Part shown: positions 3,613 to 24,610 of the stretch, piece after piece | Numbering within the stretch: the stretch's first letter is position 1 | Layout of the letters: each line of letters begins with the position of its first letter | The notes under the pieces: model-generated | The model's database searches: none | The model's input: the letters and a program-made list of their open reading frames with translations, nothing else | What the model was told of the DNA's origin: nothing | Position numbers and translations under genes: made by a program | From: Candidatus Magasanikbacteria bacterium CG10_big_fil_rev_8_21_14_0_10_36_32 | Lineage (GTDB): Bacteria; Patescibacteriota; Patescibacteriia; Magasanikbacterales; GWA2-37-8 | Direction of reading: 5' to 3' | NCBI GenBank assembly: GCA_002778465.1 | Contig: PFBV01000005.1 | Span: forward strand, 119,576 to 176,582 | Length of the DNA: 57,007 bases

Positions 3613-4410
3613 ATGAAAACTATAATTTTGTGCGGCGGCACAGGTACACGCATGAAGGAAGAAACTGAATTCAGACCAAAACCTTTGGTTGAAGTCGGTG
3701 GTAAACCGATACTTTGGCATATTATGAAGATATATGCCCACCATGGATTTAATGATTTTGTATTAGCTTTAGGGTATAAGGGCAACATGATAAAAGAATA
3801 TTTTTTAAATTGGCGGACAAAGCTTAGTGATTTTAGTTTAAATACCAAAACAGGTGAATTAACTTTTCATAATAACGATTGTGATGATTTTAAAATAACT
3901 TTTGCTGAAACAGGACCAAATAGTTTAACAGGTGAACGAGTGCGACGCTTAAAAGATTATATCGGAACAGATGAACATTTCATGGTTACATATGGAGATG
4001 GTGTGGCTGACATAGATATTAAAGATTTGGTTAATTTTCATAAAAGTCATAATTCATTGGCTACTATTACTGGAACTAAAACTGCGCCGCGATTTGGTAT
4101 TTTAAATGTTGATCACACCACCAATAAATTGGTTGATTTTAGTCAACACAAAGTTACTTCAGAAAATGAGAATGAGATAGATAATAATAAGAACATTATT
4201 AATGGCGGTTTTATGGTTTTAAAACGTGAAGTGCTAGACATGATTGAACCGGGCAGTATGATTGAAAGTGTATTTCCTAAACTAGCCAAAGACGGGCAGC
4301 TCCATGTTTATGTTCACAAGGGAAAATGGAAGTGTATGGATACCTACAAAGAAGTTGAAGAAATGAATGAACATTGGCAGAAAGATCCTTTTTGGAAAAT
4401 TTGGAATTAA
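3613..4410 (+). CDS. rfbF: Glucose-1-phosphate cytidylyltransferase
   Basis: MKTIILCGGTGTRMKEETEFRPKPLVEVGGKPILWHIMKIYAHHGFNDFVLALGYKG is characteristic of RfbF; rfbG-like gene follows. Confidence 0.95.
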   Translation: MKTIILCGGTGTRMKEETEFRPKPLVEVGGKPILWHIMKIYAHHGFNDFVLALGYKGNMIKEYFLNWRTKLSDFSLNTKTGELTFHNNDCDDFKITFAETGPNSLTGERVRRLKDYIGTDEHFMVTYGDGVADIDIKDLVNFHKSHNSLATITGTKTAPRFGILNVDHTTNKLVDFSQHKVTSENENEIDNNKNIINGGFMVLKREVLDMIEPGSMIESVFPKLAKDGQLHVYVHKGKWKCMDTYKEVEEMNEHWQKDPFWKIWN

Positions 4411-4422
4411 ATTAATTAGTCT

Positions 4423-5496
4423 ATGCAAAATTTTTATAAAAACAAGAAAGTTTTGATTACCGGACACTCAGGTTTTAAAGGTTCCTGGTTGGCGCAAATT
4501 TTAGTTAATTGGGGTGCCGATGTGATTGGAATTTCTTTACCACCCGACACTAAACCGAGTTTGTTTGAGGTATTGAAATTATCCGACCGAATAAAGAAAA
4601 ATTATTTTGTGGATATTCGTGATTTTCAGAAATTAAAAGAAATATTTGAGACGGAAAAGCCGGAGATAGTATTTCATTTGGCAGCTCAACCGCTTGTTCG
4701 AGACAGTTATGACGATCCTTTAAAAACCCACTCAACCAATGTTATCGGTACAGCGAATATTTTGCAGGTCATCAAGGAGTTTGGCGGAGTAAAGTCAGCG
4801 GTTATTATCACTACTGATAAAGTTTATGAAAACAAAGAACGAGATTATTCTTATAAAGAAACGGATGCTTTAGGAGGATATGATCCATATAGTGCCAGCA
4901 AAGCGGCGGCGGATATTGTTACTAATTCTTATATTCAGTCATTTTTTAATCCGAATGATTTTGGATCTAAGCATAATACTTTAATTGCTGTAGCTAGAGC
5001 AGGAAATGTAATTGGCGGTGGTGATTGGGCTAAAGACAGATTAGTTCCTGACATGATTAAAGCTATTTTTGAAAAAAAAGAAGCATTGGTAATTAGAAAT
5101 CCGAAAGCTGTTAGACCATGGCAACATGTATTTGAACCGTTGCGCGGTTATTTAATGCTCGGACAATATCTTTATAATGGTGAAACAAATAAATCTGGCG
5201 CATGGAATTTTGGTCCGTGCGAAGAAGATTTTGTGAGTGTGGAGCATTTAATTAAAGAAGGAATTTTGATTTTAGGGACAGGTAATTATAATATAGTTGA
5301 AGACAATTCCAAACATGAAGCAAATTTGCTTAAATTGAACATAAATAAAGCTGCAACTAATTTAAATTGGTTTCCGAAGTGGGTGCTTAAAGAAAGTTTA
5401 AAAGCGACTTTTGAGTGGTATGGACAGTTTTGTAAGGGGAGTGAAAAGATGATGGATATAACGGATCAACAAATTAATTTATATTTTAGTAATTAA
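4423..5496 (+). CDS. rfbG: CDP-glucose 4,6-dehydratase
   Basis: VLITGHSGFKGSWLAQIL..PDTKPSLFE..AAQPLVRDSYDDPLKTHSTNVIGT..TTDKVYEN typical of RfbG; YSASK catalytic motif. Confidence 0.95.
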   Translation: MQNFYKNKKVLITGHSGFKGSWLAQILVNWGADVIGISLPPDTKPSLFEVLKLSDRIKKNYFVDIRDFQKLKEIFETEKPEIVFHLAAQPLVRDSYDDPLKTHSTNVIGTANILQVIKEFGGVKSAVIITTDKVYENKERDYSYKETDALGGYDPYSASKAAADIVTNSYIQSFFNPNDFGSKHNTLIAVARAGNVIGGGDWAKDRLVPDMIKAIFEKKEALVIRNPKAVRPWQHVFEPLRGYLMLGQYLYNGETNKSGAWNFGPCEEDFVSVEHLIKEGILILGTGNYNIVEDNSKHEANLLKLNINKAATNLNWFPKWVLKESLKATFEWYGQFCKGSEKMMDITDQQINLYFSN

Positions 5497-5521
5497 AGTA
5501 AATTCAAGATCAAGTTTAAAT

Positions 5522-6403
5522 ATGTCAAAAATTAAGGTTGGAATATTAGGTACAGGCAATATAGGTACAGATCTTATGTGTAAAATACAGAGATCTGATA
5601 TTTTAGAATGCAGCATTTTTGCCGGTCGTGATTCTGAATCGCGTGGAATCAAAAAGGCTGAAGGTTTGGGAATAAAAACATCGTTTAATTCTATCCGCGC
5701 AATTGAGGATAATCCTGCAATTTGCGATATTGTTTTTGATGCGACTTCAGCTAAAGCACATAAAGAGCATGCTATTATACTGAAAAAATTAGGTAAATTT
5801 GTTGTAGATTTAACTCCGTCTAGAATCGGTAAAATGTGTATTCCTGTTATTAATATTGATGATGCGCTGAATCATAATAATGTGAATATGGTTACATGTG
5901 GCGGTCAAGCATCTGTGCCAATTGCAAAAGCAATTATGGAAGTTCATCCGGAAACGCAATATATTGAGGTTGTGGCCAGTATCTCTTCTAAGTCAGCCGG
6001 TTCCGGCACGCGAGCAAATATTGATGAGTATACCCAAACCACTAAAGACGCAATTGAATTTTTTTCTGGTGTTCCTAAAGCAAAAGCCATTATAATTTTA
6101 AATCCGGCTGAACCGCCGATTTTAATGAATAATACCATATATGCTAAAATAGATAACCCTGATTTAGTAAAAGTAAAAGAAAAAATATTACAAGTTGAAT
6201 CTCAAATTCGTAAATATGTTCCAGGTTATAAAATTGCGTTTGGACCGGTTTGTGAAAATGGTCGTTTGACCGTCATGATAGAAGTGATTGGTGCTGGAGA
6301 TTATTTGCCTAAATATTCTGGTAATTTAGACATAATAACTTGTGCTGCCATTCAAGTGGCGGAAGAATATGCTAAAAGAAAAATTAAACATGATTATGAA
6401 TAA
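5522..6403 (+). CDS. Acetaldehyde dehydrogenase (acetylating), MhpF/DmpF-like
   Basis: KVGILGTGNIGTDLM, VTCGGQASVPIAKAI (catalytic Cys) and SAGSGTRANIDEYTQTT motifs; followed by the partner aldolase. Confidence 0.93.
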   Translation: MSKIKVGILGTGNIGTDLMCKIQRSDILECSIFAGRDSESRGIKKAEGLGIKTSFNSIRAIEDNPAICDIVFDATSAKAHKEHAIILKKLGKFVVDLTPSRIGKMCIPVINIDDALNHNNVNMVTCGGQASVPIAKAIMEVHPETQYIEVVASISSKSAGSGTRANIDEYTQTTKDAIEFFSGVPKAKAIIILNPAEPPILMNNTIYAKIDNPDLVKVKEKILQVESQIRKYVPGYKIAFGPVCENGRLTVMIEVIGAGDYLPKYSGNLDIITCAAIQVAEEYAKRKIKHDYE

Positions 6404-7439
6404 GATTATTTTTTTTGACTCTACTTTACGTGACGGCTCGCATGCTGTTCGTCATCAAATTAGTTTAGAATCAATTAGGAATTATTGTAGAAAAATTGAT
6501 GGGGCTGGTTTATATACGGTTATAGTTGGTCATGGAAATGGACTGGGAGCATCTTCTTTGCAGGTTGGTTTATCTGCTCATTCCGATGTGGAAATGTTGA
6601 CTGCTGCTCGCCAAGAATTACATAAAACTAAATTAGGAGTTTTTTTATTGCCTGGTTTTGGAACCATTAAAGATGATTTGGCTCCAGCTATTGATTTAGG
6701 GGTTGATGTTGTGTGTGTGGCTTGTCATTGTACTGAAGCAGATACAACTAGACAACATATAGAATATGTAATAAGCAGAGGTAAAGAAGCATTCGGTGTT
6801 TTGATGATGTATCATCGAGCGTCTCCAGAAAAATTATTGGAAGAAGCTAGAAAAATGCAAGATTATGGAGCAAAAGGAGTAATATTAATGGATTCGGCCG
6901 GAGCTTCAATTCCCAGTATGGTGTCAAATGTTATTAGATATTTAACAGATAACTTAGAAATTCCGGTTGGATTTCATGGACATAATAATTTAGGCATGGC
7001 AGTAGCGCATTCACTTTTGGCTGTAGAATCAGGAGCAACTATTATTGACGGCACATTATGCGGTTTTGGTGCGGGTGCCGGAAATTGCCAACTTGAAGCA
7101 TTGGCAGCACTAATGCATAAAAATGGCATGCAAACAAATGTTGATTTATATAAATTATTAGATGCCAGTGAAGAAGTTGCAACTCATATAATGACACAAC
7201 CGCAAGAGATAAGTTCTTTAAGTATTGTAAGCGGTTTAGCTGGAATTTTTTCAGGGTTTACTACACATGTTAAAAATGCTGCTAAACGATTTAATGTTGA
7301 TCCGAGAGATATATTTATAGAATTGGGAAAATTAAAGGTTGTTGGAGGACAAGAAGATGCAATTGTTAGAGTGGCTATGAATTTGGCTGACAAAAGAAAA
7401 GACAACGAGAGAAATTATCAAATCGAATCTTTATCCTAA
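6390..7439 (+). CDS. 4-hydroxy-2-oxovalerate aldolase, MhpE/DmpG-like
   Basis: FDSTLRDGSHAVRHQIS, GFHGHNNLGMAVAHSLLAVESGA, GAGAGNCQLEAL. Listed start 6342 lies far inside the upstream gene; ATG 6390 or 6396 is likelier and overlaps its stop. Confidence 0.93.
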   Translation: MIMNKIIFFDSTLRDGSHAVRHQISLESIRNYCRKIDGAGLYTVIVGHGNGLGASSLQVGLSAHSDVEMLTAARQELHKTKLGVFLLPGFGTIKDDLAPAIDLGVDVVCVACHCTEADTTRQHIEYVISRGKEAFGVLMMYHRASPEKLLEEARKMQDYGAKGVILMDSAGASIPSMVSNVIRYLTDNLEIPVGFHGHNNLGMAVAHSLLAVESGATIIDGTLCGFGAGAGNCQLEALAALMHKNGMQTNVDLYKLLDASEEVATHIMTQPQEISSLSIVSGLAGIFSGFTTHVKNAAKRFNVDPRDIFIELGKLKVVGGQEDAIVRVAMNLADKRKDNERNYQIESLS

Positions 7440-7452
7440 ATTTATTAAACAT

Positions 7453-9231
7453 ATGATACTATCAGATTTCATTTTCAAATTTTTATCGGAAAAAGGCGTG
7501 GATCAGGTTTTTATGGTGACTGGTGGACAGGCAATGTTTTTAGACGATGCTGTTTATAAAAATAAAAAAATGAAGTATGTCTGTACTCACCACGAACAAA
7601 CTGCCGGAATGGCGGCGGATGCTTATGGACGGATAAAAAATAAACCGGCCGTGGCTTTGATAACAGCCGGTCCGGGTGCGGTTAATGTTATTAATGGTGT
7701 GGTGGGCGGTTGGACAGATTCTTCCCCAATGATTATTTTGTCCGGGCAGTCTAATTTATCTTATGTTGAATATCAGGAAAAAACAGGTATTAGACAATAT
7801 GGAGTGCAAGGAATAAATATTAAACCATTAGTTGAAAACGTGGTTAAGTATTTTGTCACAGTGGATAATCCTGAAAATATTTTATACTATCTTGAGAAAG
7901 CTTACCATTTGGCTACCAGTGGACGTCCTGGTCCTGTTTGGATTGATGTTCCTGTTGATATGCAGAGAGTTGAAGTGGCGGATGGTTATTTAAGAGGATT
8001 TGATGAATATTCAAAAAAGGAAATAGTTGAAACAGGAACTATTAATAAAATTATAGAATTACTGAATAGATCTAAGCGGCCGATTGTGTTAGCTGGACAA
8101 GGAGTTAGATTATCAGGGGGGGCTGAGGAATTCATTCAATTGATTAAAAAAATGAATATTCCTGTTTTAACATCAAGATTAGGTATTGATTTAATAAATA
8201 GCGACAACAAACTTTATGTTGGTCGGCCGGGTACTTACGGAGAAAGAGCAGCTAATTTTGCCATTCAAAATTCCGATTTAATATTAGCGATTGGTTGTAG
8301 ATTAGCAACACCTCTGATAGGACATGATGCAAAAGATTTTGGTAGACGCGCTAAAAAAATAGTGATTGATATTGATCAAAAAGAACTTGATAAACCGGGA
8401 TTAGAAATAGATTTAAAAGTTAAAGCCGATGCTAATGATTTTATTAAAGAATTAATGAAATCATTAGGGAATGTAAGTTTGCCAGATTATAACAAGTGGA
8501 TTGAGCAGTGTAATTATTGGAAAGAAAAATATCCGGTTGTTTTACCTGATTATAAAAATGAAAAACCGGTTAATTCTTATTATTTTACAGACAAACTTTC
8601 ACAAATGGCCACTAAGAATGATTTAATCTTACTGGATACAGGTTCTTGTTTTCATGTGGTTTGTCAAGCTTGGAAAGTCAAAGAAGGACAGAAATTTTTA
8701 ACAACCGGTGGACTTTCTTCGATGGGTTATTGGGCGGCTGGTATTGGCGCTTGCGAGGCTAATGATAGAAAAAGAACGATAGTTATTACTGGAGATGGAA
8801 GTTTACAGATGAATCTACAAGAGTTCGCAACAATTAAGCACAATAATTTACCGATTAAAGTTTTTGTTTTTAATAATAATGGCTATTTACTGATACGACA
8901 TACACAGAATAATTTTATGGATGGACGTTTAATTGGGGAAGGTCCGTCCACCGGTGTTTGGTGTCCTGATTCTGTGAAAATTGCCGAAGCTTATGGTATA
9001 CATGCTGTTAGGATTGATTCTGTTGCAGGTATTGAAGAAAAAATAAAAGAAGTTTTAGAATACAATGGTCCTGTTATCTGTGATGTTATGACGCCAGAAT
9101 TACAATTGTTAATTCCAAGAGTAGCCTCAGACAAAATGCCTGACGGAAGTCTTGTTTCCAGACCGTATGAAGATATGTTTCCGTTTTTAAGCAAAGAAGA
9201 ATTACAAAGTAATGTGATTAAGGACAGTTGA
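7453..9231 (+). CDS. Thiamine-pyrophosphate-dependent enzyme, acetolactate-synthase-like (TPP1)
   Basis: Catalytic Glu in THHEQTAG, TAGPGAVN, TPP motif GDGSLQMNLQEFATIKHNNLPIKVFVFNNNGY. Confidence 0.92.
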   Translation: MILSDFIFKFLSEKGVDQVFMVTGGQAMFLDDAVYKNKKMKYVCTHHEQTAGMAADAYGRIKNKPAVALITAGPGAVNVINGVVGGWTDSSPMIILSGQSNLSYVEYQEKTGIRQYGVQGINIKPLVENVVKYFVTVDNPENILYYLEKAYHLATSGRPGPVWIDVPVDMQRVEVADGYLRGFDEYSKKEIVETGTINKIIELLNRSKRPIVLAGQGVRLSGGAEEFIQLIKKMNIPVLTSRLGIDLINSDNKLYVGRPGTYGERAANFAIQNSDLILAIGCRLATPLIGHDAKDFGRRAKKIVIDIDQKELDKPGLEIDLKVKADANDFIKELMKSLGNVSLPDYNKWIEQCNYWKEKYPVVLPDYKNEKPVNSYYFTDKLSQMATKNDLILLDTGSCFHVVCQAWKVKEGQKFLTTGGLSSMGYWAAGIGACEANDRKRTIVITGDGSLQMNLQEFATIKHNNLPIKVFVFNNNGYLLIRHTQNNFMDGRLIGEGPSTGVWCPDSVKIAEAYGIHAVRIDSVAGIEEKIKEVLEYNGPVICDVMTPELQLLIPRVASDKMPDGSLVSRPYEDMFPFLSKEELQSNVIKDS

Positions 9232-9254
9232 ACGTGTTTGTAAAATAATAATGT

Positions 9255-10142
9255 ATGGAAAATAAAAAGAAAATATTTTTAACCGGAGGAGGGGGATTTA
9301 TTGGTCAAAATATTTTGGAACAACTTGGTGATAAATATGAATTTGTGGCGCCACGTAGCCATGATATTGATTTGACCGACAGTGATAAAGTCGAAAAATT
9401 AATTAAATCTTTTCGACCCGATATTGTGATACATGCGGCTAATTTAGGAGGAAGGCGTAAAGATAAAAACGTAAAAGATGTCGCTTATATAAATTTAAAA
9501 ATGTTTTTTAATATTATTCGTTGTAAAAAATATTTTGGTAGGATGATTATGTTTGGCACTGGCGCTGAGTATGATAAACAGTTTGATATTGCCGGAGTAA
9601 AAGAAGATTTTTTTGATACTCGGATCCCTAACAATCAGCATGGTTTTTACAAATATGTCTGTGCTAAATACGCTGAACAGGTTGATTTTATTACCCACCT
9701 GCGTATTTTTGGAATGTTTGGCAAATATGAAAATTTTTCGCTTGGTTTTATTGCCAATAATATTTGTCGGACATTATTTGATTTGCCTGTTTCCATAAAT
9801 CAAAATGTATTTTTTGAATATGTTTTTGTTAATGATTTTGTTAAAATTTTGGATTATTTTATAAACAATTCAGGCAAGGAAAATTTTTATAATATTGGCA
9901 CAGGACAAAGAATGTCCTTATTGGATATTGGAAACAAAATCTTGAAGCGCTCTGGAAAGAATTTGCCAATTGTGGTCAAACAAGATGGTTTGAACAAAGA
10001 ATATACTTGTAACAGTGAACGCTTAAGAAAAGAAATTCCCGGTTTATCGTTTACTTTGTTTGAAGAGGCGATTGGTCAATTATTTTTATATTATTCTGGA
10101 AAAATAAAAGATATTAAAAAGGAAGATATTTTATTTGATTAA
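9255..10142 (+). CDS. NAD-dependent epimerase/dehydratase (SDR), possibly a sugar ketoreductase
   Basis: FLTGGGGFIGQNIL Rossmann motif, HAANLGG, YVCAK (YxxxK). Confidence 0.85.
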   Translation: MENKKKIFLTGGGGFIGQNILEQLGDKYEFVAPRSHDIDLTDSDKVEKLIKSFRPDIVIHAANLGGRRKDKNVKDVAYINLKMFFNIIRCKKYFGRMIMFGTGAEYDKQFDIAGVKEDFFDTRIPNNQHGFYKYVCAKYAEQVDFITHLRIFGMFGKYENFSLGFIANNICRTLFDLPVSINQNVFFEYVFVNDFVKILDYFINNSGKENFYNIGTGQRMSLLDIGNKILKRSGKNLPIVVKQDGLNKEYTCNSERLRKEIPGLSFTLFEEAIGQLFLYYSGKIKDIKKEDILFD

Positions 10143-10145
10143 GTT

Positions 10146-11342
10146 ATGTTTTTAAATAACAAAAATATCACAGTGGATAAATGCCGGGTTTGTGGACAGA
10201 AATTATTTGAACAGCCACTATTGCGATATGGAAATATGCCGATGGCGGCACAGTGTTTGCCGGATGAACAATCTCTTAAAAATGACAGGGGTATTAATTT
10301 GGAAATTTATCAATGTTCAGGTTGTGGTTTGGTGCAATTAAACAGTGAGTCGGTTCCGTATTATAAAGAAGTTATACGAGCTACTATTTTTTCTTCGGAA
10401 ATGAAAGAATTTAGAATGAAACAGTTTACTAATTTTGTAGAGAAGTATTCTCTTCAAAATAAAAAAATTATTGAAATTGGCTCTGGTCGTGGGGAAAATT
10501 TATTTATTATGTCCCAATGCGGAGTGAATGTTTTTGGGATTGAATATTCTGCTGATTCAGTGGAACAATGTGTTAAAAATGGATTAAATGTATCAAAAGG
10601 ATTTGTTGAAAACAGTAATTATGTTATAAGCGACGCTCCATTTGACGCTTTTTTTTCATTGAGTTTTATTGAACATTTACCCGAATTAAATCAAGTTCTT
10701 CAAGGAATACGCAACAACCTAACTGATGATGCGGTTGGAATTGTAGAGGTGCCTAATTTTGATATGATTTTAAGGAGTAAACTTTTTTCCGAATTTACAC
10801 GGGATCATTTATTTTATTTTACTAAGGAAACATTTATTTCTACTTTAGAAATGAATGGATTTGAAACTGTAGAATGTGGTGAGGTTTGGCATGATTATAT
10901 TATCTCAGCTGTCGTAAAACCGATTAAAAATTTTCAAACTAAACCGACGGTGGTTAAAAAAATAGAAAAAGTTGATTTATCATCTTTTTACAATCATCAG
11001 TCAAAACTTAGAAATGAAACAGAAAAGTATATTAGTCAGTTTCAGAAAGGAAAAGTGGCTGTCTGGGGAGCTGGACATCAGGCATTAGCTGTAATTTCTA
11101 TGCTTGGTTTGGGTGATAAAATTAAATATGTTGTTGATTCCGCTGTATTTAAACAGGACAAATATACTCCGGCTACTCACATCCCAATTGTTGCGCCAGA
11201 CATGCTTCATTTAGACCCAATGGAAGCGGTAATTGTTATCGCGGGCAGCTATTCTGAAGAGGTATCGAAGATTATACGGGTAAAATATAATCAGAATATC
11301 AATGTTGTAATTTTAAGAGATTTTGGATTGGAAAAAGTTTAA
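10146..11342 (+). CDS. SAM-dependent methyltransferase of the sugar C-methyltransferase type
   Basis: N-terminal Cys pairs CRVCG..CSGCGLVQ, central EIGSGRGENL SAM motif, C-terminal VAVWGAGHQALAVISM..VVDS domain. Confidence 0.85.
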   Translation: MFLNNKNITVDKCRVCGQKLFEQPLLRYGNMPMAAQCLPDEQSLKNDRGINLEIYQCSGCGLVQLNSESVPYYKEVIRATIFSSEMKEFRMKQFTNFVEKYSLQNKKIIEIGSGRGENLFIMSQCGVNVFGIEYSADSVEQCVKNGLNVSKGFVENSNYVISDAPFDAFFSLSFIEHLPELNQVLQGIRNNLTDDAVGIVEVPNFDMILRSKLFSEFTRDHLFYFTKETFISTLEMNGFETVECGEVWHDYIISAVVKPIKNFQTKPTVVKKIEKVDLSSFYNHQSKLRNETEKYISQFQKGKVAVWGAGHQALAVISMLGLGDKIKYVVDSAVFKQDKYTPATHIPIVAPDMLHLDPMEAVIVIAGSYSEEVSKIIRVKYNQNINVVILRDFGLEKV

Positions 11343-11360: not shown

Positions 11361-12365
11361 ATGTTAAAAAGTCTTAGAGAAAAAGATCGTAAAAATTTAT
11401 CTGAATTAATACCGTTGGAAATGCCGTTTACACTTTTGGTTGAGCCAACCAATCTTTGCACCTTAGCATGTAAATTTTGTCCAACCAGCGATGTTGATTT
11501 ATTGAAGAAATTTAATCGTCAGCAAGGAATGATGGATTATGAATTATTTAAAAAAATTATTGATGATATAAAAACATTCAATTCTAAATTAAAAAAATTG
11601 TATCTGTATAAAGACGGAGAGCCATTACTTAATCCAAAATTAATTGACATGATTCAATATGCCAAAGATATGGATGTGGCTGAAGATATTCGTCTTACCA
11701 CTAACGGGACGCTTTTGACTCCGGAAATGAATCGTAAGTTAGTTCAAGCTGGTTTAAATTTAATACAGATATCAATAAATGCTGTTTCTGATGAAGGATA
11801 TAATAAAATTTGCAACAGAAAGGTTAGTTATAAAAAGTTGGTTGAAAATATAACCGATTTGTATAACAACAGAGGTTGTTGTCAGATGCATATTAAATTT
11901 TTAGATTGTAATCGTTCAGTTGAAGAAAGAGAAAAATTTGTAAAAGATTTTCAAAAAATTTCCACCTCTATTAATATAGAAACATTGCATGGTTGGTCTG
12001 CATCAGACGCAAAAGATTTTACTTTAAATATTGAACCGGACACAACGCCGGACGGAGTAGCTTTTATTCCCAAAGAAGTTTGTCCGTTCCCGTTTTTTTC
12101 GTTGGCAATTAATTTTAATGGAACCGTGTCAATTTGTTGTGTTGACTGGTCTCACGGGACAGTGGTTGGAGATCTTAGAAAACAATCTTTACGTGAAATT
12201 TGGGAAGGAAAAGCCTTGTATGATTTTCGTGTTATGCACTTAAAAAAACAAAGACACTATAATCGTGCTTGTAAAGATTGTTGTTATATAACAACCGCTT
12301 CGGATTGTATTGATGATGATGCGGTGGTAATCTTAGAAAGATTAGCCAAAAAATATGGTAAATAG
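11361..12365 (+). CDS. Radical SAM protein with SPASM-like C-terminus
   Basis: EPTNLCTLACKFC (CxxxCxxC); C-terminal CPFPFFSLAINFNGTVSICCVDW..CKDCC. Confidence 0.88.
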   Translation: MLKSLREKDRKNLSELIPLEMPFTLLVEPTNLCTLACKFCPTSDVDLLKKFNRQQGMMDYELFKKIIDDIKTFNSKLKKLYLYKDGEPLLNPKLIDMIQYAKDMDVAEDIRLTTNGTLLTPEMNRKLVQAGLNLIQISINAVSDEGYNKICNRKVSYKKLVENITDLYNNRGCCQMHIKFLDCNRSVEEREKFVKDFQKISTSINIETLHGWSASDAKDFTLNIEPDTTPDGVAFIPKEVCPFPFFSLAINFNGTVSICCVDWSHGTVVGDLRKQSLREIWEGKALYDFRVMHLKKQRHYNRACKDCCYITTASDCIDDDAVVILERLAKKYGK

Positions 12366-13515
12366 TACTGATGAAAAAATTATAAATCTTTTTAAAAATA
12401 AAAAAGATTACTATGAAGATAGGATTAAAGACCTTTTTCCGAGTTGCGATTTTGTTTTTAATCAAAAACAAGGTGTGATTATATATCCGGCTGGAAGAAA
12501 AACTGAGGTATTGGTGCAAAATTTAATCAAAAATGGTTTGTCAGTCGTCGCAGTTGGTGACAGTAATAATAATTTGTGGGGTAAAAAAATTGGACCATGC
12601 CAAATTTTCTCTCCTGAAGATTTGGCGAAAAAATATTTGAATTTTCCACTTATAGTTAGCAGCACTGATTATCGACAAGAAATAACAGAAACATTAAAAA
12701 AATTAGGGTTTCAGAAGATATTTCATATTAGTTTTCTTAATTTTATTAATGCGGTTATTTTTCCAGTTTTTCCAGAATATCACAAGAGATTTCATTCTCT
12801 TTTTGAACCAGACAATCAGGCGGAAATAATAAGATTGAATTCTTTGTGGGAAGATGAAGAATCTCGGGGAACTTTTTTAAAAGTTTTACAATTTAGACTT
12901 AGTTTTAATGAGTTAATTTTGAATGAAAGAAAATTTTCCAGTAATCAGTATTTTGAAAAAAAGTTTATGTCTTTTTCCAACGAGGAAGTTTTTATAGATT
13001 GTGGCGCTTTTAAAGGAGAAACAATTGAACAATTTAATCTGATAACTTCGGCAAAGTTTAAAAAAATTTATGCTTTTGAACCGGACAGAAATAATTTTGA
13101 AAAACTTGAAATAAAGTGTAAAGAAATTGGTCCTACAAAAATAGATTGTGAGCCCAGCGGAGTGTATGGTTTCACAGGAAAAGTTAATTTTATGGAAACA
13201 GGAGATGCTATTGCTAGAATTGTGGAAGATGATGCGTCTTTGTGTATCAATGTTGTTAGTTTAGATGATTTTATGAAAGACAAGGAACGGGTGACGTTTA
13301 TAAAAATGGATATTGAAGGTGCAGAAACGGAAGCTTTATTGGGTGCTAAAGAAATTATTCAAAAATATAAACCAAAATTAGCGATTTCTGTGTACCACAA
13401 TGCTACTGATTTGTGGGAAATTCCATTATTAATTAAGAGTCTCAATAGTGAGTATAAGATTTATTTACGCCATTATTCTAATGAGGTGATGGATACTGTG
13501 TGTTACGCAGTATAA
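12355..13515 (+). CDS. FkbM-family methyltransferase with extra N-terminal Rossmann-like domain
   Basis: EVFIDCGAFKGETIEQF..YAFEPDRNNFEKL..FIKMDIEGAETEALLGA typical of FkbM. Confidence 0.85.
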   Translation: MVNSTDEKIINLFKNKKDYYEDRIKDLFPSCDFVFNQKQGVIIYPAGRKTEVLVQNLIKNGLSVVAVGDSNNNLWGKKIGPCQIFSPEDLAKKYLNFPLIVSSTDYRQEITETLKKLGFQKIFHISFLNFINAVIFPVFPEYHKRFHSLFEPDNQAEIIRLNSLWEDEESRGTFLKVLQFRLSFNELILNERKFSSNQYFEKKFMSFSNEEVFIDCGAFKGETIEQFNLITSAKFKKIYAFEPDRNNFEKLEIKCKEIGPTKIDCEPSGVYGFTGKVNFMETGDAIARIVEDDASLCINVVSLDDFMKDKERVTFIKMDIEGAETEALLGAKEIIQKYKPKLAISVYHNATDLWEIPLLIKSLNSEYKIYLRHYSNEVMDTVCYAV

Positions 13516-13540
13516 AATATGTGTTTTTTCCTTATTAACA

Positions 13541-13570
13541 TTGACAAAGGTGGGGAAATTCCATTATAAT
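13541..13570 (+). promoter_or_regulatory. Internal sigma70-like promoter within the polysaccharide cluster
   Basis: TTGACA (13541-13546), 18-nt spacer, TATAAT (13565-13570); about 100-nt AT-rich leader before ATG 13673. Confidence 0.72.
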
Positions 13571-13672
13571 ATGGCAAGTAATAGATTATATAAAATAAAG
13601 AAAGGTCAGTTAAAAATTTAAAAAATATTCAAATTATCATTAATTTAATTTTAATTAATCTAATTAAAATAT

Positions 13673-14773
13673 ATGTCAACACAGCCAAAACTTGGTTCAA
13701 ACGAAATCGGTCGTAGAAATAAATTAAAAGACGAAAAGCCGTATGTTTATGAAAAAGTCGCAAAATTTGATGAAAAAATAAGACGAGGTGAAAGTATTGC
13801 TATAATTCAATTTCAGTATAACTATACGTGTAATTTCGCCTGTGAACACTGTTCTGTTAAACGGTTTCAAGGAAAAAACGATGCTAGACAAATGACAATT
13901 CCTGATGTAAAAGAACTTTTTCGTCAGGCAGATGAATTAGGATTGGCGCGTGTAACTATTACAGGTGGGGAGCCCCTCGTATTTAAAGATTTAGATGAAT
14001 TAGTTGCAGCCATTGATCCGAAAAAGTTTTATATCAATTGTGATACCAACGGTTGGTTGTTAAACGAAAAGATGGCCAAACATTTAAAAGAAATTGGTGT
14101 TGATAGAGTTCAATTAAGTTTAGATAGTTTCAACGCAGAAGAACATGATGAGTTTAGACATGTTAAAGGGGCTTATGATCGAGCGATGAAAGCAGTGGAC
14201 ATTGCCAAAGATGCTGGTTTGGATATTTTTATGCAAACTGTAGTTTGGAAACAGCGTCTTCATTCCGATGAATTTATTAAATTTCTTGAATATTTTAATA
14301 ATAAGGGCGTTGGTGTGTTTGTTAGTTATGCCAAACCAGTTGGTTCTTGGGAAGGTAAATATGATGGTTTAGTGGACAAAGAAGACATGGCTTATATGAG
14401 AGAGTTAGAAAAAAAATATAAAGTATTTACGCATCTGACCCCAGCCTACGGTCTCAATATGGGTTGTATTGCGGTTAAAGGCATGTTTTCAGTGACTCAG
14501 TATGGTGATGTTTTGCCGTGTCCTTATATTCACACTTCAATTGGAAATATTTTTAATGAGTCATTGGAAGACATAATCAAAAGAGGTTTGGATATCAAAT
14601 ATTTTGGTGAACATGTTAATACCTGTTTGATTGCTGAGGATCGGGATTTTATTGATAAATATGTGGCTGGAAGAATTTATGGCAAACCATTGCCAGTTCC
14701 ATGTTCGGAAGTATTTACAGAAGAGGATAAAACACAAAAACCTTTCAATGAAGATCCCAGTGTATTTCAGTAG
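13673..14773 (+). CDS. Radical SAM/SPASM domain protein
   Basis: YTCNFACEHCSVKRF, ITGGEPLVFKDLDEL, SPASM-like CIAVKGMFSVTQYGDVLPCPYIHTSIGNI. Confidence 0.9.
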   Translation: MSTQPKLGSNEIGRRNKLKDEKPYVYEKVAKFDEKIRRGESIAIIQFQYNYTCNFACEHCSVKRFQGKNDARQMTIPDVKELFRQADELGLARVTITGGEPLVFKDLDELVAAIDPKKFYINCDTNGWLLNEKMAKHLKEIGVDRVQLSLDSFNAEEHDEFRHVKGAYDRAMKAVDIAKDAGLDIFMQTVVWKQRLHSDEFIKFLEYFNNKGVGVFVSYAKPVGSWEGKYDGLVDKEDMAYMRELEKKYKVFTHLTPAYGLNMGCIAVKGMFSVTQYGDVLPCPYIHTSIGNIFNESLEDIIKRGLDIKYFGEHVNTCLIAEDRDFIDKYVAGRIYGKPLPVPCSEVFTEEDKTQKPFNEDPSVFQ

Positions 14774-14776
14774 ACT

Positions 14777-15274
14777 ATGAATGTTGTGGATGCCATATCA
14801 ATTTTGGAAGAACGAGTTCCTAATCCGTCGGAGGGCTTACCTGATGAAATATTTTTCTACATCAGCAAGACGACTCCGTTGGTGAATATTGATTTGTTAA
14901 TAAAAGATGAAAATGGACGGACACTTTTATCTTGGCGAAATGATAAAAATTCTGGACAAGGATGGCATGTGCCAGGCGGAATAATAAGGTTTAAAGAAAC
15001 TTTGGAAGAAAGAGTTAATAAAGTTGCTGAAATAGAAATAGGACAAAAAATAGATTTTAATCCAGTTCCAATCGCAGTCAATCAGTTTATTAATCGGGAG
15101 CGTAGTATTAGAAGTCATTTTGTTTCTATTTTATACAAAGGTTTTTTATCAAGTGATTTTATTCCTGAAAACAGAGGATTTACCAAAGACGATGCTGGTT
15201 ATCTAAAATGGCATGATTTCTGTCCTGATAATATGATTAAATGTCAGAAAATATACCAAAAATACATAGATTAA
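14777..15274 (+). CDS. NUDIX hydrolase, GDP-mannose mannosyl hydrolase-like (NUDIX1)
   Basis: WHVPGGIIRFKETLEERVNKVAEIEIG resembles GDPMH-type NUDIX. Confidence 0.82.
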   Translation: MNVVDAISILEERVPNPSEGLPDEIFFYISKTTPLVNIDLLIKDENGRTLLSWRNDKNSGQGWHVPGGIIRFKETLEERVNKVAEIEIGQKIDFNPVPIAVNQFINRERSIRSHFVSILYKGFLSSDFIPENRGFTKDDAGYLKWHDFCPDNMIKCQKIYQKYID

Positions 15275-15296
15275 CGTTTAATTAGGAAATTTTATT

Positions 15297-16322
15297 ATGA
15301 AAGCAAAAAATATCAGTGGACAAGCTCCTGGTGGACAAAGAAAAAAACTTGCGGAAGTGCTTCCTTTAAATACGCCGTTTGTTGTACAAATATTTCCATT
15401 ATACGCTTGCACTTTTAAGTGTAATTATTGTATTTTTTCGATTGATCCAAGTAAGCGCGGTTTTATTTCTGATAAGGTGGTGATGGATTTAAATTTGTAT
15501 AAAAAATGTATTGATGACATGACCAAATTTCCTGAAAAGATAAAAACTTTGCGTTTGGTTGGAATAGGCGAACCACTTTTTCATCCCGATGTGGTAGAAA
15601 TGGTTAGGTATGCGGTGGAAAAAAAGGTGGCCAGTACTGTGGAGGTTTTAACAAATGCTTCACTTTTAACCCCACAGATGTCCGACAATCTTATTGCTGC
15701 CGGTCTTACTCGTTTAGTTGTGTCTACACAAGGAACTACAAAACAAAAATACCATGATGCTTGCGATGTAGATATAGATTTTGATAAGTTTATTGATAAT
15801 TTAAAATATTTTTATAATAAAAAAGGTAATGTACAAATGTATATTAAAATTATAGATTGTGCTTTAGACGGAAAAGAAGATGAGGAAAAATTCTTTAAAA
15901 TTTTTGGAGATATTTGTGACACTATCGCGGTTGAACACACTCTACCCATTCATTCTGGTATTGACTATACAGATGTGATGAGAGGTAAGGATATGTTTTT
16001 AACCCAGTTTGGTTTACCTGTATCAGAAGTTGAAATTTGTCCACAACCTTTTTTTACAATGCAAATCAACCCGGATGGAAAAGTTGTACCGTGCTATTCG
16101 TTTGAGTACCCGGGTATTATGGGTGATTGCAACAATCAATCAGTTAATGATATTTGGAATGGTAAAGTTTTTCAGAAATTTAGACGAGACATGTTGAGTG
16201 GTACTAAAAATATATGTGAATCTTGTGCTAAGTGCAATATAATCAAATACAGAATGTTTCCGGAAGATAATTTAAATGATGATGCCGCACGACTTAAAAA
16301 GTGCTACGAATCTAAAATATAA
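15297..16322 (+). CDS. Radical SAM protein with SPASM-like C-terminus, similar to the 11361 gene product
   Basis: YACTFKCNYC (CxxxCxxC); CPQPFFTMQINPDGKVVPCYS..CESCAKC. Confidence 0.88.
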   Translation: MKAKNISGQAPGGQRKKLAEVLPLNTPFVVQIFPLYACTFKCNYCIFSIDPSKRGFISDKVVMDLNLYKKCIDDMTKFPEKIKTLRLVGIGEPLFHPDVVEMVRYAVEKKVASTVEVLTNASLLTPQMSDNLIAAGLTRLVVSTQGTTKQKYHDACDVDIDFDKFIDNLKYFYNKKGNVQMYIKIIDCALDGKEDEEKFFKIFGDICDTIAVEHTLPIHSGIDYTDVMRGKDMFLTQFGLPVSEVEICPQPFFTMQINPDGKVVPCYSFEYPGIMGDCNNQSVNDIWNGKVFQKFRRDMLSGTKNICESCAKCNIIKYRMFPEDNLNDDAARLKKCYESKI

Positions 16323-16338
16323 ATAATTTATTTATCCC

Positions 16339-17505
16339 ATGAACAGAGTTTGTCCGATTTGCACTAACCTTGAGAAAACGCTTCTTTATCAGCAGAATTT
16401 TAATAAGAATGCGGATATTTCTTTAATGGAAAAATATGATGTTGTTGTGTGTAATAAATGCGGATTTGTTTTTGCGGACAGTGTTCCTTCACCAGATATT
16501 TTTGATAATTATTATGCAGCAATGTCTAAATACGAATTTAATTATAAAGACGGTGTTGTGCCAGAAGAACATATTAAACATTTTACTAAAATAGCAGATT
16601 TTATAACGCCACATTTAAAAAATAAAAATGTAAAAATTTTAGATATTGGCTGTTCAACTGGGGGTTTATTGTCCATTTTAAAATCAAAAGGTTATTTAAA
16701 TCTATTAGGAATTGATCCATCATCTTCATGTGTAAACGCAGTTAAGAAATTGTATGGTATTGAAGCAATGGTAAATAATATTTCTAATTTTAATTCTAAT
16801 GAAAAATTTGATTTGATTATTTTATCAGCTGTACTAGAACACTTAGTTGATTTTGAAAGTTCAATGTGTAAAATCAGGTCCTTATTATCAGATAGTGGAA
16901 TGTTGTTTATAGAAGTTCCTGATGCTGAAAGATTTGATTTATATATATCAGCTCCCTTTCAGCAGTTTAGTGTTGAACATATTAATTATTTTTCTCAATA
17001 TTCCATAGAAAATTTATTTTCAGTTTTTTCTTTTGAAATGCTTGATTTAAAAGTTAATGAAAATAAATCAAATCCGAGTATAGATCCAGATATTTTTGTG
17101 TTGGGGAAAAAAACAGAGAATAAGGATGTTGCAATTTCCAAAGATGATATTAGTGTGGGAAAAATAAAAAATTATATAAATGAGAGTGCGAAGATTGATT
17201 TTAAAATAAAAAAATTATTGGAAGAAAAATTATCAGATAAGGATAAAATAATTGTTTGGGGAGTGGGAACTCATACCCAAAGATTGATTGGTGCAGGTAT
17301 GGAAATTTCTAAGATATTATATTTTGTTGATTCAAATATAAGATATATCGGAAAACAGCTTAATGGTATAGAAATAAAATCTCCACAAAATATTAAAGAA
17401 GAAGTTCCAATATTAATTTCGACCCATTCGTTTCAGAAAGAAATTATTCATCAGATTAGAGAAATTTTAAAATTAAATAACGAAATAATAAAATTATATC
17501 AATAA
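16339..17505 (+). CDS. SAM-dependent methyltransferase, similar domain layout to the 10146 gene product
   Basis: CPIC..CNKCGFVFA Cys pairs, ILDIGCSTGGLLSIL, C-terminal IIVWGVGTHTQRLI..FVDS. Confidence 0.85.
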   Translation: MNRVCPICTNLEKTLLYQQNFNKNADISLMEKYDVVVCNKCGFVFADSVPSPDIFDNYYAAMSKYEFNYKDGVVPEEHIKHFTKIADFITPHLKNKNVKILDIGCSTGGLLSILKSKGYLNLLGIDPSSSCVNAVKKLYGIEAMVNNISNFNSNEKFDLIILSAVLEHLVDFESSMCKIRSLLSDSGMLFIEVPDAERFDLYISAPFQQFSVEHINYFSQYSIENLFSVFSFEMLDLKVNENKSNPSIDPDIFVLGKKTENKDVAISKDDISVGKIKNYINESAKIDFKIKKLLEEKLSDKDKIIVWGVGTHTQRLIGAGMEISKILYFVDSNIRYIGKQLNGIEIKSPQNIKEEVPILISTHSFQKEIIHQIREILKLNNEIIKLYQ

Positions 17506-17521
17506 TTCTTGTTGAGCGCTT

Positions 17522-18589
17522 ATGAGAGAAGTTACTGAATTTAACAGCCATGCTTTAATTGATGATTTGAATTATATTTTGATTCAGACCAAAGATTTTT
17601 GGGAAGACCTTCGGGGAAAACGTTTGTTCATTACCGGTGGAACGGGGTTTTTTGGAAGCTGGTTGTTGGAAAGTTTTGCTTGGGCTAATGAAAAATTGAA
17701 TCTTAATGCTTCAGTTCTTGTTTTGACAAGAAATGCCGATGATTTCAAAAAAAGAATGCCCCATTTGGCTGATAATCCGGCGATTAAATTTCATATTGGC
17801 GATATCAGACATTTTGATTTTCCAGAAGGAGAGTTTTCGCACATTATTCATGCCGCCGCCACTTCCGCTGTTGCCACTTTCAACAAAGAGGATCCATTGG
17901 TTAAATTTGAAACCATTGTTGAGGGTACGAGACGAGTGCTTGATTTTGCGGTTCATTGTCATGCTAAAAAAGTTCTTTTGACTAGTTCTGGAGCTGTTTA
18001 TGGCAAACAGCCATCCGAAATGACACAAGTTTCTGAAGATTATCTTGGCGCGCCGGATTCAACTGACATTAATTCTGCGTGGGGCGTGAGTAAGCGATCA
18101 GCCGAATTTATTGGTGTTTATTACGCTAAAAAATATAATATTGAAATAAAAATAGTTCGTTGTTTTAGTTTTGTTGGACCTTATTTGCCGCTGGATATTC
18201 ATTATGCCGTCGGAAATTTTATTCGCGACGCGTTAACCGGAGGTCCGATTATGATTAATGGAGACGGCACACCGCATCGCTCTTACCTTTATGCCGCCGA
18301 CTTGATGATTTGGCTCTGGATTATCTTAATTAAAGGAGAATCGTGTCGAATTTATAATGTTGGTTCTAGCGACGACATAACGATCGCTGATTTAGCTGAA
18401 GCAGTGGCTGATAATTTTCCTGGAAAAATTGAAGTAAAAATTGCTAGACCGCTTGTGTCGAAAAGTCCGCCGGAAAGATATGTTCCTTCAACAGTCCGAG
18501 CGGAAAAAGAACTGGGATTGAAACAGATAATTAGCTTAAAAGATGCGATTAAAAGGACAATAATTTATCATCAAAAAATTAATAAGTAA
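17522..18589 (+). CDS. NAD-dependent epimerase/dehydratase with atypical catalytic motif
   Basis: LFITGGTGFFGSWLLESF, HAAATSAVATF, LLTSSGAVYGKQP; the YGxSK position reads WGVSK. Confidence 0.82.
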   Translation: MREVTEFNSHALIDDLNYILIQTKDFWEDLRGKRLFITGGTGFFGSWLLESFAWANEKLNLNASVLVLTRNADDFKKRMPHLADNPAIKFHIGDIRHFDFPEGEFSHIIHAAATSAVATFNKEDPLVKFETIVEGTRRVLDFAVHCHAKKVLLTSSGAVYGKQPSEMTQVSEDYLGAPDSTDINSAWGVSKRSAEFIGVYYAKKYNIEIKIVRCFSFVGPYLPLDIHYAVGNFIRDALTGGPIMINGDGTPHRSYLYAADLMIWLWIILIKGESCRIYNVGSSDDITIADLAEAVADNFPGKIEVKIARPLVSKSPPERYVPSTVRAEKELGLKQIISLKDAIKRTIIYHQKINK

Positions 18590-18613
18590 TTTAATAATAA
18601 TTAATATAAAAAT

Positions 18614-20149
18614 ATGGACAAGATTGATCAAATTTTTATTCAACACAAAACAGAAGGCTCTAAACCGCTGTTCATTTTTGAAATGGCTAATAACCATATG
18701 GGTGACGTAGAGCATGGATTAAAAATTATTCGTGATGTTCACGAAGTCAGCAAAGATTTTGATTTCAACTTTGCTTTTAAATTTCAGTACCGCGACTTAG
18801 ACACATTTATCCACCCTGATTATAAAGACAGAATGGATCTTAAATATATTAAGAGGTTTTCCGAAACTCGTTTAAGTGAAGAAGAATTTTTACAATTAAA
18901 AAATGAAGCCAAGAAACTCGGTTTCATTACTATTTGTACTCCGTTTGATGAGAAATCGGTTGAAAATGTAGTAAAACATAATTATGATATTATAAAAATT
19001 GCCAGCGCTTCATTCACTGATTGGCCGCTCTTAGAACAAATAGTCAAACAGGATAAGCCTGTTATTGCCAGTACAGGTGGTGTTAAATTAGATAATGTTG
19101 ATAAAGTAGTTAGCTTTTTACAACACCGCAATAAAAATTTCGCCATTATGCATTGTGTTGGACAATATCCAACACAGGAAGATCAACTACAATTCAATCA
19201 GATTACTTTATTTAAAGAAAGATATCCCGAAGTTACAGTGGGATTTTCTACTCATGAATCACCCGATAATTTTGAGGCGGTTAAATTAGCTGCAGCCAAA
19301 GGAGCTTGGATTTTTGAAAAACATGTCGCGATTAAAAGTGATAAATATTCAATTAACGCTTATTCGGCTACTCCCGACCAATTAAGAAAGTGGCTTGAGG
19401 CTGCGGAACACGCTTTTAAAATTTGTGGTGTAATTGGAAAAAGACATGATTTTTCTCAAAGCGAATTGGCTGATATTCGTCAGTTTCAGAGAGGAGTTTT
19501 TGCGTCTAAAGATATAAAAAAAGGAGAAAGAGTTGAAATTAAAAATTCTTTTTTTGCTTTTCCTAACAAGGATGGTCAAATTTTGGCCAATGAAATGTCA
19601 AAATATACCGTTTTTACCGCACTGAAAGATTTTAAAAAGAACGATCCTGTTATGGAAGAGGAAGTTAATAAAGTTGAAGTTCGTGAAAAAGTTTATGAAG
19701 CGGTGGAAAAAATAAATAAACTGATAAAACAGGCCAATATGCCAATTTCTAACGAGTGGTATTTTGAACTTTCACATCATTATGGTTTAGAAAAATTTTA
19801 TGATGTTGGTGCCAGTATTATCAGTTGTTTCAATCGTGAATATTGCAAAAAATTTATAATTCTTTTACCCGGACAAAAACATCCGAAGCATTTCCATAAA
19901 GTAAAAGAGGAAACATTTCATGTGTTATATGGGGATGTTACATTTGATTTGGACGGTAAGATAATTGAATGTAAAGCGGGAGATATTGTGCCAGTTGAAC
20001 GAGGTGTAAACCATTCTTTTGTCACAAAAGGTGGCTGTATATTTGAGGAAATTTCCACCACCCACATTCCTGGTGATTCTTATTATGAGGATGAAGAAAT
20101 TTTGAATAATCAAAATCGTAAGACAGTACTTACTTATTGGATAATGTAA
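18614..20149 (+). CDS. NeuB-family (PEP-condensing) synthase with SAF-like region and C-terminal cupin domain
   Basis: FEMANNHMGDVEHG, IKIASASFTDWPLL, STGGVKL, HCVGQYPT, VGFSTHES; C-terminal cupin LLPGQKHPKHFHKVKEETFHVLYGDV. Confidence 0.85.
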   Translation: MDKIDQIFIQHKTEGSKPLFIFEMANNHMGDVEHGLKIIRDVHEVSKDFDFNFAFKFQYRDLDTFIHPDYKDRMDLKYIKRFSETRLSEEEFLQLKNEAKKLGFITICTPFDEKSVENVVKHNYDIIKIASASFTDWPLLEQIVKQDKPVIASTGGVKLDNVDKVVSFLQHRNKNFAIMHCVGQYPTQEDQLQFNQITLFKERYPEVTVGFSTHESPDNFEAVKLAAAKGAWIFEKHVAIKSDKYSINAYSATPDQLRKWLEAAEHAFKICGVIGKRHDFSQSELADIRQFQRGVFASKDIKKGERVEIKNSFFAFPNKDGQILANEMSKYTVFTALKDFKKNDPVMEEEVNKVEVREKVYEAVEKINKLIKQANMPISNEWYFELSHHYGLEKFYDVGASIISCFNREYCKKFIILLPGQKHPKHFHKVKEETFHVLYGDVTFDLDGKIIECKAGDIVPVERGVNHSFVTKGGCIFEEISTTHIPGDSYYEDEEILNNQNRKTVLTYWIM

Positions 20150-20179
20150 ACTGATATTACTAATAGCAGTAAATGAAAT

Positions 20180-21100: not shown

Positions 21101-21105
21101 ATAGT

Positions 21106-22779: not shown

Positions 22780-22790
22780 TTGTCTATATT

Positions 22791-23252: not shown

Positions 23253-23275
23253 ACAAGGTTTATTTAAAAAACAAT

Positions 23276-24583
23276 ATGTCATTAAATGAAAAAATTATTC
23301 AGGGTATCAGCGAGGAATATCAAATAAAATTTCCAGCTAAAAAATTTATTCCCGGACAGTCGGCCGTACCGATTTCAGGTAAAGTTTTTGATGAGAAAGA
23401 GTTGATTTTTATGACTGAGGCAGTGATGGAAGGTTGGTGGACTGAAGGAAAATATTCTGAACAATTGGAATTAAAAATAGCTTCTTATATTGGAATTAAA
23501 CATTGTACATTGGTTAATTCTGGTTCCTCGGCTAATCTGCTGGCTTTAACAGCTTTAACCTCAGTTAAATTGCCGGTTGAGAAAAGATTAAAACCCGGTG
23601 ATGAAGTTATTACAGTTGCCGCTGGATTTCCAACCACTGTTAATCCTATAATTCAAAATAATTTAATTCCGGTTTTTGTAGACGTTGAGCTTGGTTCTTA
23701 TAATCCAAATTTAGAATTAATTAAAAAAGCTGTTTCTGAAAAAACTAGAGCAGTGATTATTGCACACACACTTGGAAATCCATATAAAGTTGATGAAATT
23801 GCTGAATTTTGTCGGGAAAAAGGATTCTGGTTAATAGAAGATAATTGCGATGCGCTTGGTTCTGAATATAAAAATAAAAAGACGGGTAGTTTTGGACATA
23901 TTTCAACCCTGAGTTTTTATCCGGCACATCATATTACCACTGCTGAAGGCGGAGCAGTTTTAACTGATGATACTTTATTAAATAAAATTGTCAGATCATT
24001 GAGAGATTGGGGTAGGGATTGCTGGTGTCCTACTGGCAAGGATGATACCTGTAAGAATAGGTTTAATTGGCAACTGGGTGATTTGCCATTTGGTTATGAT
24101 CATAAATATATTTACAGTGAATTAGGCTACAATTTAAAAATGACTGATATACAGGCGGCTCTTGGTTTGGCTCAGGTGGAAAAGTTAGACAGTTTTGTGA
24201 ACAAAAGAAAAGAAAATTTTAAATTATTAAATGAACAATTAAAAAAATTTGAAAACCATTTAATTTTACCTGAATGTTTACCGGAGGCTGATCCGAGTTG
24301 GTTTGGTTTTTTGATTAGTATAAAAGAAAATTCCGGCATTAATCGGACAGAGTTGTTAAAATATTTAAATGATAAAAAAATTGGTACTAGGTTGTTGTTT
24401 GCCGGAAATATTATTAAGCAACCATATTTTGTTGAAAACAAGTATAGTTACAAAGTGGCAGGAGATCTTAAAAATACTGATTATATAATGAATAACAGTT
24501 TTTGGATTGGTTTAGGACCTTTGGTCAACCGAGAAATGATTGAATATGTTGGACAAGTTTTTGGTGAATTTATTAATAAATAA
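23276..24583 (+). CDS. rfbH: CDP-4-dehydro-6-deoxyglucose 3-dehydratase (E1)
   Basis: PLP-fold protein with His replacing the Lys (SFYPAHHITTAEGGAV) and the E1 [2Fe-2S] spacing C-X57-C-X1-C-X7-C (from NCDALG to CWCPTGKDDTC). Confidence 0.95.
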   Translation: MSLNEKIIQGISEEYQIKFPAKKFIPGQSAVPISGKVFDEKELIFMTEAVMEGWWTEGKYSEQLELKIASYIGIKHCTLVNSGSSANLLALTALTSVKLPVEKRLKPGDEVITVAAGFPTTVNPIIQNNLIPVFVDVELGSYNPNLELIKKAVSEKTRAVIIAHTLGNPYKVDEIAEFCREKGFWLIEDNCDALGSEYKNKKTGSFGHISTLSFYPAHHITTAEGGAVLTDDTLLNKIVRSLRDWGRDCWCPTGKDDTCKNRFNWQLGDLPFGYDHKYIYSELGYNLKMTDIQAALGLAQVEKLDSFVNKRKENFKLLNEQLKKFENHLILPECLPEADPSWFGFLISIKENSGINRTELLKYLNDKKIGTRLLFAGNIIKQPYFVENKYSYKVAGDLKNTDYIMNNSFWIGLGPLVNREMIEYVGQVFGEFINK

Positions 24584-24610
24584 AATTGATTGCCGAAGTT
24601 TATTACGTTT

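Follow-up and report, generated by a model that had tools for sequence, protein, structure and literature searches.

The locus analyzed here raises the question of why a patescibacterial gene cluster for cytidine diphosphate (CDP)-linked sugars should contain an acylating acetaldehyde dehydrogenase and a 4-hydroxy-2-oxovalerate aldolase, two enzymes of families associated with aromatic degradation. The cluster lies at positions 3613 to 11342 of a 57,007-nucleotide stretch of Candidatus Magasanikbacteria bacterium CG10_big_fil_rev_8_21_14_0_10_36_32 (contig PFBV01000005.1), referred to here as the window. Its seven open reading frames (ORFs) encode RfbF, RfbG, the dehydrogenase, the aldolase, a thiamine diphosphate (ThDP)-dependent enzyme designated TPP1, a short-chain dehydrogenase/reductase (SDR), and a C-methyltransferase-type protein. 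We consider it quite probable that its product is a CDP-linked deoxysugar with ten carbons and a branch at C4, similar to erwiniose and destined for the cell surface. From gene identities, retained catalytic residues, conserved linkage, and phylogeny, we infer the substrates, direction, product, and stereochemistry of the pathway.

Proposed pathway and its precedents

In the proposed route, RfbF, RfbG, and RfbH would provide CDP-4-keto-3,6-dideoxyglucose. The dehydrogenase/aldolase pair, which is of the DmpF/DmpG type, would operate in the synthetic direction, such that acetyl-CoA is reduced to acetaldehyde and handed to the aldolase, which would condense it with pyruvate to 4-hydroxy-2-oxopentanoate, probably in the 4R form. 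TPP1 would decarboxylate this acid and transfer CH3-CHOH-CH2-CO- to the C4 ketone, generating a tertiary alcohol, and the SDR would reduce the side-chain ketone as the last step. Six carbons from the sugar and four from the branch would give ten. A POR gene is present in the genome, and its product would be a source of acetyl-CoA. Aromatic-degradation enzymes would thus be reused for sugar building.

A reverse-running pair that feeds TPP1 and yields a ten-carbon product had been suggested in an initial annotation of the sequence. This scheme is well supported by linkage, phylogeny, and the precedent of ErwE, but the sugar chemistry to which it leads is of a kind already known. The YerE-like enzyme ErwE is reported to use 4-hydroxy-2-oxo acids as donors, among them 4-hydroxy-2-oxopentanoate, and not pyruvate (PMC12247030), and erwiniose is described as a branched monosaccharide with ten carbons (PMC8657720). 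There is thus a precedent for both the donor proposed here and the number of carbons. The system of Pectobacterium atrosepticum, to which ErwE belongs, resembles the predicted pathway in its YerE-like ThDP enzyme, CDP-4-keto-3,6-dideoxy acceptor, long 4-hydroxy-2-oxo acid donor, and ten-carbon product. It differs in the organism and in that the donor-making pair is seen in the cassette described here. Ten-carbon branching as such is therefore not new, being known from ErwE and erwiniose; what is new is the probable donor supply together with an aldolase signature, Tyr291Phe plus Leu88Phe/Tyr/His. Text searches found no open-access paper linking erwiniose or caryophyllose to an aldolase pair. 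The value of the finding would lie in this probable donor supply, in a stereochemical prediction, and in a wider pattern among related loci. Bradyrhizose, another ten-carbon sugar, was also considered; nothing in the data bears on it.

The aldolase pair is linked to TPP1 and CDP-sugar genes

To place the pair in its genomic context, the host genome was compared with those of 57 relatives. Among these 58 genomes, the aldolase (at least 63% identity) and the TPP1 ortholog (62 to 69%) were confined to the same three, where they lie side by side. If placement were random and kinship is ignored, such a coincidence would arise in 1 of 30,856 draws. All three aldolase matches in 286 genomes of the phylum adjoin TPP1 and rfb genes. 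Eighty loci were obtained from a named genome collection; the linkage described next holds for TPP1-type members at 58% identity or more. The aldolase gene was directly upstream of the TPP gene in all 12 clade members with visible upstream DNA; in the 13th, the contig starts at the TPP gene. The dehydrogenase gene precedes that of the aldolase in the clade loci, one further contig beginning inside the aldolase. Carriers include Falkowbacteria, Magasanikbacteria, Omnitrophica, Clostridia, and Endomicrobia, so that the mhpF-mhpE-TPP order is found again in other phyla. A minimal set of rfbF, rfbG, mhpF, mhpE, TPP, SDR, and rfbH genes occurs in Clostridium gasigenes DSM 12272, which is a cultured organism suitable for testing the pathway.

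An out-of-sample check was performed with 369 genomes from the class of Chromobacterium, in which three aldolases exceeded the threshold. Both sugar-type aldolases clustered with rfbF, rfbG, an rfbH-like gene, an SDR gene, mhpF, and a YerE-like TPP gene, and the single aldolase with a catabolic signature had no TPP or rfb genes nearby. The initial annotation had proposed a survey for fixed rfbG-mhpF-mhpE-TPP neighborhoods; in other bacteria, the pair is indeed accompanied by TPP1-type and CDP-sugar genes. Since the TPP enzymes of both clusters scored only 443 to 447 bits against TPP1, linkage to the pair extends beyond one TPP clade. The rfbH-like proteins scored about 200 bits, which makes the acceptor in these clusters less certain.

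The pair could be thought to be a remnant or part of aromatic meta-cleavage catabolism, given the families to which both proteins belong. The pair does retain the metal ligands, catalytic residues, and channel domain of the DmpF/DmpG, BphJ/BphI, and MhpF/MhpE complexes, including the TCGGQ motif with the catalytic Cys of the dehydrogenase and R17, D18, H21, H200, and H202 of the aldolase (DmpG numbering). It differs from these complexes in Leu88 and Tyr291, both replaced by Phe, in its inferred synthetic direction, and in the lack of an FAA-type hydratase/decarboxylase (PF01557) anywhere in the host genome (880 kb, 97% complete). Besides the cassette dehydrogenase, that genome has no AcetDehyd copy, which, with the linkage seen elsewhere, agrees with the earlier view that the pair does not belong to a catabolic pathway encoded at another site. 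As the aldolase also falls in a separate clade and has an active-site residue pair unlike that of all 11 catabolic-type aldolases compared, a role in aromatic catabolism was rejected as very improbable.

TPP1 is a YerE-like enzyme

Among NCBIfam models, TPP1 scored best with acetolactate synthase, which would make it a plain acetohydroxyacid synthase (AHAS). This score, 379 bits, is well under the model cut-off of 538 bits. The closest solved structure is the YerE-like enzyme JanthE (8rph, 412 bits), and the best AHAS reached 262 bits. In a tree of 99 TPP sequences, TPP1 was placed in a 13-member clade separate from AHAS with a Shimodaira-Hasegawa-like approximate likelihood ratio test (SH-aLRT) support of 100. 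This tree was obtained by a short search without a mixture model, and strongly supported branches alone were therefore relied on. IlvD is absent from the genome. We rejected the AHAS identity, which is almost certainly wrong, and conclude from sequence comparison that TPP1 is YerE-like; clustering with IlvB, as contemplated in the initial annotation, was not seen. TPP1 keeps the ThDP motif GDGSLQMN (447 to 454) and the catalytic glutamate E48. The genome has two TPP enzymes of this type, both in the window.

YerE, which forms yersiniose A in Yersinia pseudotuberculosis, catalyzes the reaction type inferred for TPP1, namely, ThDP-dependent carboligation of an acyl unit at C4 of a CDP-4-keto sugar. 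YerE prefers pyruvate, and 2-oxobutyrate is the largest donor accepted (PMC12247030). TPP1 might likewise take pyruvate and add an acetyl group, the aldolase pair serving another step, and the donor range of JanthE, which accepts both short and long donors, including 4-hydroxy-2-oxovalerate with benzaldehyde as the acceptor (PMC12188165), is compatible with this. However, the pair is fixed directly upstream of the TPP gene across phyla, frequently with overlapping genes, while the remaining neighborhood varies, and we regard a pyruvate-fed TPP1 as improbable. JanthE (PDB 8rph, 8rpi, and 8rpj) and TPP1 have V121, Y268, P293, and H494 in common. They are 36% identical and differ in a CDG motif in JanthE that is GDG in TPP1, and the tree placement of JanthE is weak. 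A further YerE-like enzyme, MMAR_2332 of Mycobacterium marinum, resembles ErwE in donor preference but belongs to caryophyllose, whose sugar branch has six carbons. Caryophyllose carries a 1,3,4,5-tetrahydroxyhexyl branch at C4 (PMC5706390). A branch of this kind would be expected from a 3-deoxy-2-ulosonic acid donor.

The aldolase carries a signature that predicts donor stereochemistry

Positions 88 and 291 of the aldolase correspond to Leu87 and Tyr290 of BphI. Position 291 was Phe in all 17 sugar-linked aldolases and Tyr in 11 of 11 catabolic-type enzymes. Position 88 was Phe, Tyr, or His in the sugar-linked group, in which one sequence is cut before this residue, and Leu in the catabolic type. 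BphI forms and cleaves the 4S acid only, a control that is abolished by Y290F, and its L87N/Y290F and L87W/Y290F variants switch to cleaving only the 4R acid (PMC3962088). Because stereochemistry in BphI is set at these two positions, both of them altered in the window aldolase, the product of the latter is probably 4R 4-hydroxy-2-oxopentanoate; the signature looks like a natural counterpart of the engineered change.

If the structure of erwiniose is 3,6,8-trideoxy-4-C-[(R)-1-hydroxyethyl]-D-gulo-octose, C7 is R, which would fit a 4R donor.

Noncatabolic signatures were also found in plasmid-borne pairs of Rhizobium (L105, His/Phe), Phaeobacter (L106, His/Cys), and Kitasatospora (L107, Phe/Phe). 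Neither the Phaeobacter nor the Kitasatospora aldolase has an annotated YerE-like TPP gene at its side, and the Rhizobium stretch yielded none; the best plasmid matches to TPP1 were AHAS-like, with about 28 to 32% identity. These plasmid pairs likely serve other uses.

Acceptor supply and evidence against the proposed product

Genes for all three enzymes that would supply CDP-4-keto-3,6-dideoxyglucose are present in the window. The test proposed in the initial annotation also includes RfbH, which is encoded beyond the cassette. RfbH contains the cysteine pattern C191-X57-C249-X-C251-X7-C259, which we take to be the iron-sulfur ligand pattern of the E1 dehydrase. In the other clade loci with long flanks, rfbF was found less than 10 kb from the pair in 10 of 10 and RfbH in 9 of 10.

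Several observations weigh against an erwiniose-type product. RfbH is encoded 14 kb downstream of the cassette, where its neighbors are tyvelose-type genes and that for the second TPP enzyme; the acceptor could therefore retain its 3-hydroxyl. One clade locus (L026) has no clear RfbH gene within 10 kb. An RfbI-type NAD-binding reductase (PF00175), the E3 partner of RfbH, was not found in the 97% complete genome. TPP1 was compared with ErwE by published description. Finally, sugar-type and catabolic aldolases form the two sides of one branch in the tree (support, 93/93), which makes the residue change a single evolutionary event. The match between signature and gene context therefore counts as close to one observation and is helped only by the 369-genome check.

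With respect to the acceptor, the same donor chemistry could act on CDP-4-keto-6-deoxyglucose and give a product of the Rhodopseudomonas palustris type that keeps the 3-hydroxyl. The position of RfbH among genes of other sugars would be explained in this way, and C4-branched sugars with oxygen at C3 exist (PMC9912281). The proximity of RfbH to the pair in nearly all long-flanked loci, including L023 and L025, where no tyvelose-type SDR pair is in view, argues against this acceptor, which we consider unlikely. Because RfbH may also serve the second cassette and the tyvelose-type genes, confidence in the 3,6-dideoxy acceptor is lower than in the donor. Electron donors for RfbH other than a PF00175 protein are possible. 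Locus L103 has an E3-like ORF (13183 to 13866) adjoining rfbH.

By eye, two SDRs encoded directly after rfbH (24590 to 26535) resemble paratose synthase (RfbS) and CDP-tyvelose epimerase (RfbE). With them, the CDP-4-keto-3,6-dideoxy intermediate would have three uses.

Gene layout and accessory genes

All seven ORFs of the cassette were found contiguous and in the order first described, on the plus strand, separated by 3 to 25 bases or overlapping slightly (Table 1). The aldolase ORF spans 6342 to 7439, with a likely start at ATG 6390 or 6396.

Table 1. Predicted genes of the two cassettes in the window
Feature	Position	Strand	Supporting match
rfbF-like glucose-1-phosphate cytidylyltransferase	3613..4410	+	TIGR02623, 274 bits; slightly below 300-bit cut-off
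rfbG, CDP-glucose 4,6-dehydratase	4423..5496	+	TIGR02622, 467 bits, above cut-off
mhpF/dmpF-like acylating acetaldehyde dehydrogenase	5522..6403	+	TIGR03215, 394 bits, above cut-off; AcetDehyd-dimer domain
mhpE/dmpG-like 4-hydroxy-2-oxovalerate aldolase, sugar type	6390..7439	+	TIGR03217, 382 bits, above cut-off; HMGL-like and DmpG_comm channel domain
Predicted YerE-like ThDP carboligase TPP1	7453..9231	+	Three TPP domains
SDR, candidate ketoreductase for new side-chain ketone	9255..10142	+	Epimerase family
C-methyltransferase-type protein	10146..11342	+	Methyltransf_13 and Methyltransf_14
NeuB-like synthase with cupin	18614-20149		
HAD-type hydrolase	20180-21100		
Second YerE-like TPP enzyme	21106-22779		
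rfbH, CDP-6-deoxy-4-keto-glucose 3-dehydrase (E1)	23276..24583	+	NF011936, 673 bits

Homologs of the SDR were found in loci L007, L008, and L019 (319 to 322 bits), and another SDR gene immediately follows the TPP gene in L023, L025, L027, and L028. The methyltransferase gene lies in the operon, as initially annotated, but no homolog above 60 bits was found in other loci of the TPP1 clade, which places it outside the conserved core; it was rejected as a core member. Strong homologs of this protein occur in NeuB-type loci.

In Clostridium gasigenes, a flagellin gene (L025, 15037 to 15900) adjoins the minimal cassette, which suggests that flagellin may carry the cassette sugar in this organism.

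A second cassette and a wider pattern of acid-building neighbors

Further downstream, at 16339 to 24583, the window contains a second cassette comprising a methyltransferase, an SDR, a NeuB-like synthase, a HAD hydrolase, the second TPP enzyme, a small protein, and RfbH. The block SDR-NeuB-HAD-TPP-RfbH was found again in L020, including a homolog of the HAD hydrolase.

The groups of the TPP tree track the neighboring acid-building enzyme, with clades linked to the pair, to NeuB, and to HMGL-like enzymes. A NeuB-like synthase is encoded within 4 kb in 14 members of a 23-member clade, its gene ending mostly 430 to 940 bases ahead of the TPP frame; in the window, the intervening gene is that for the HAD-type hydrolase. 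A four-member clade is accompanied by an HMGL-like aldolase, and in three of the four also by HpcH. YerE-like enzymes might constitute a family of modular design, every clade having a 2-oxo-acid builder of its own: a DmpFG-type pair of altered stereochemistry for the cassette at 3613 to 11342, a NeuB-type phosphoenolpyruvate-condensing synthase for the second cassette and many other loci, or HMGL-like/HpcH aldolases. We give this generalization even chances. If the neighboring 2-oxo-acid enzyme does tell the donor, the side chain could be predicted from sequence, and a modular family would extend such prediction to many undescribed higher-carbon surface sugars.

In L019 (11045 to 13526), genes for an HpcH-type aldolase and a 572-residue HMGL-like/MptE-like fusion lie upstream of a YerE-like TPP gene, and the same gene pair occurs in L034 and L099. 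Loci L045, L054, and L084 each contain the dehydrogenase/aldolase pair plus an HpcH-type aldolase. A split transketolase-like pair adjoins the mhpF-mhpE-TPP genes in L007 (6764 to 8523) and L026 (5358 to 7105), possibly representing a second ThDP system that acts on the same or another sugar. Between the two cassettes of the window (11361 to 16322) are three radical SAM genes, starting at 11361, 13673, and 15297, and genes for an FkbM methyltransferase and a NUDIX-like protein.

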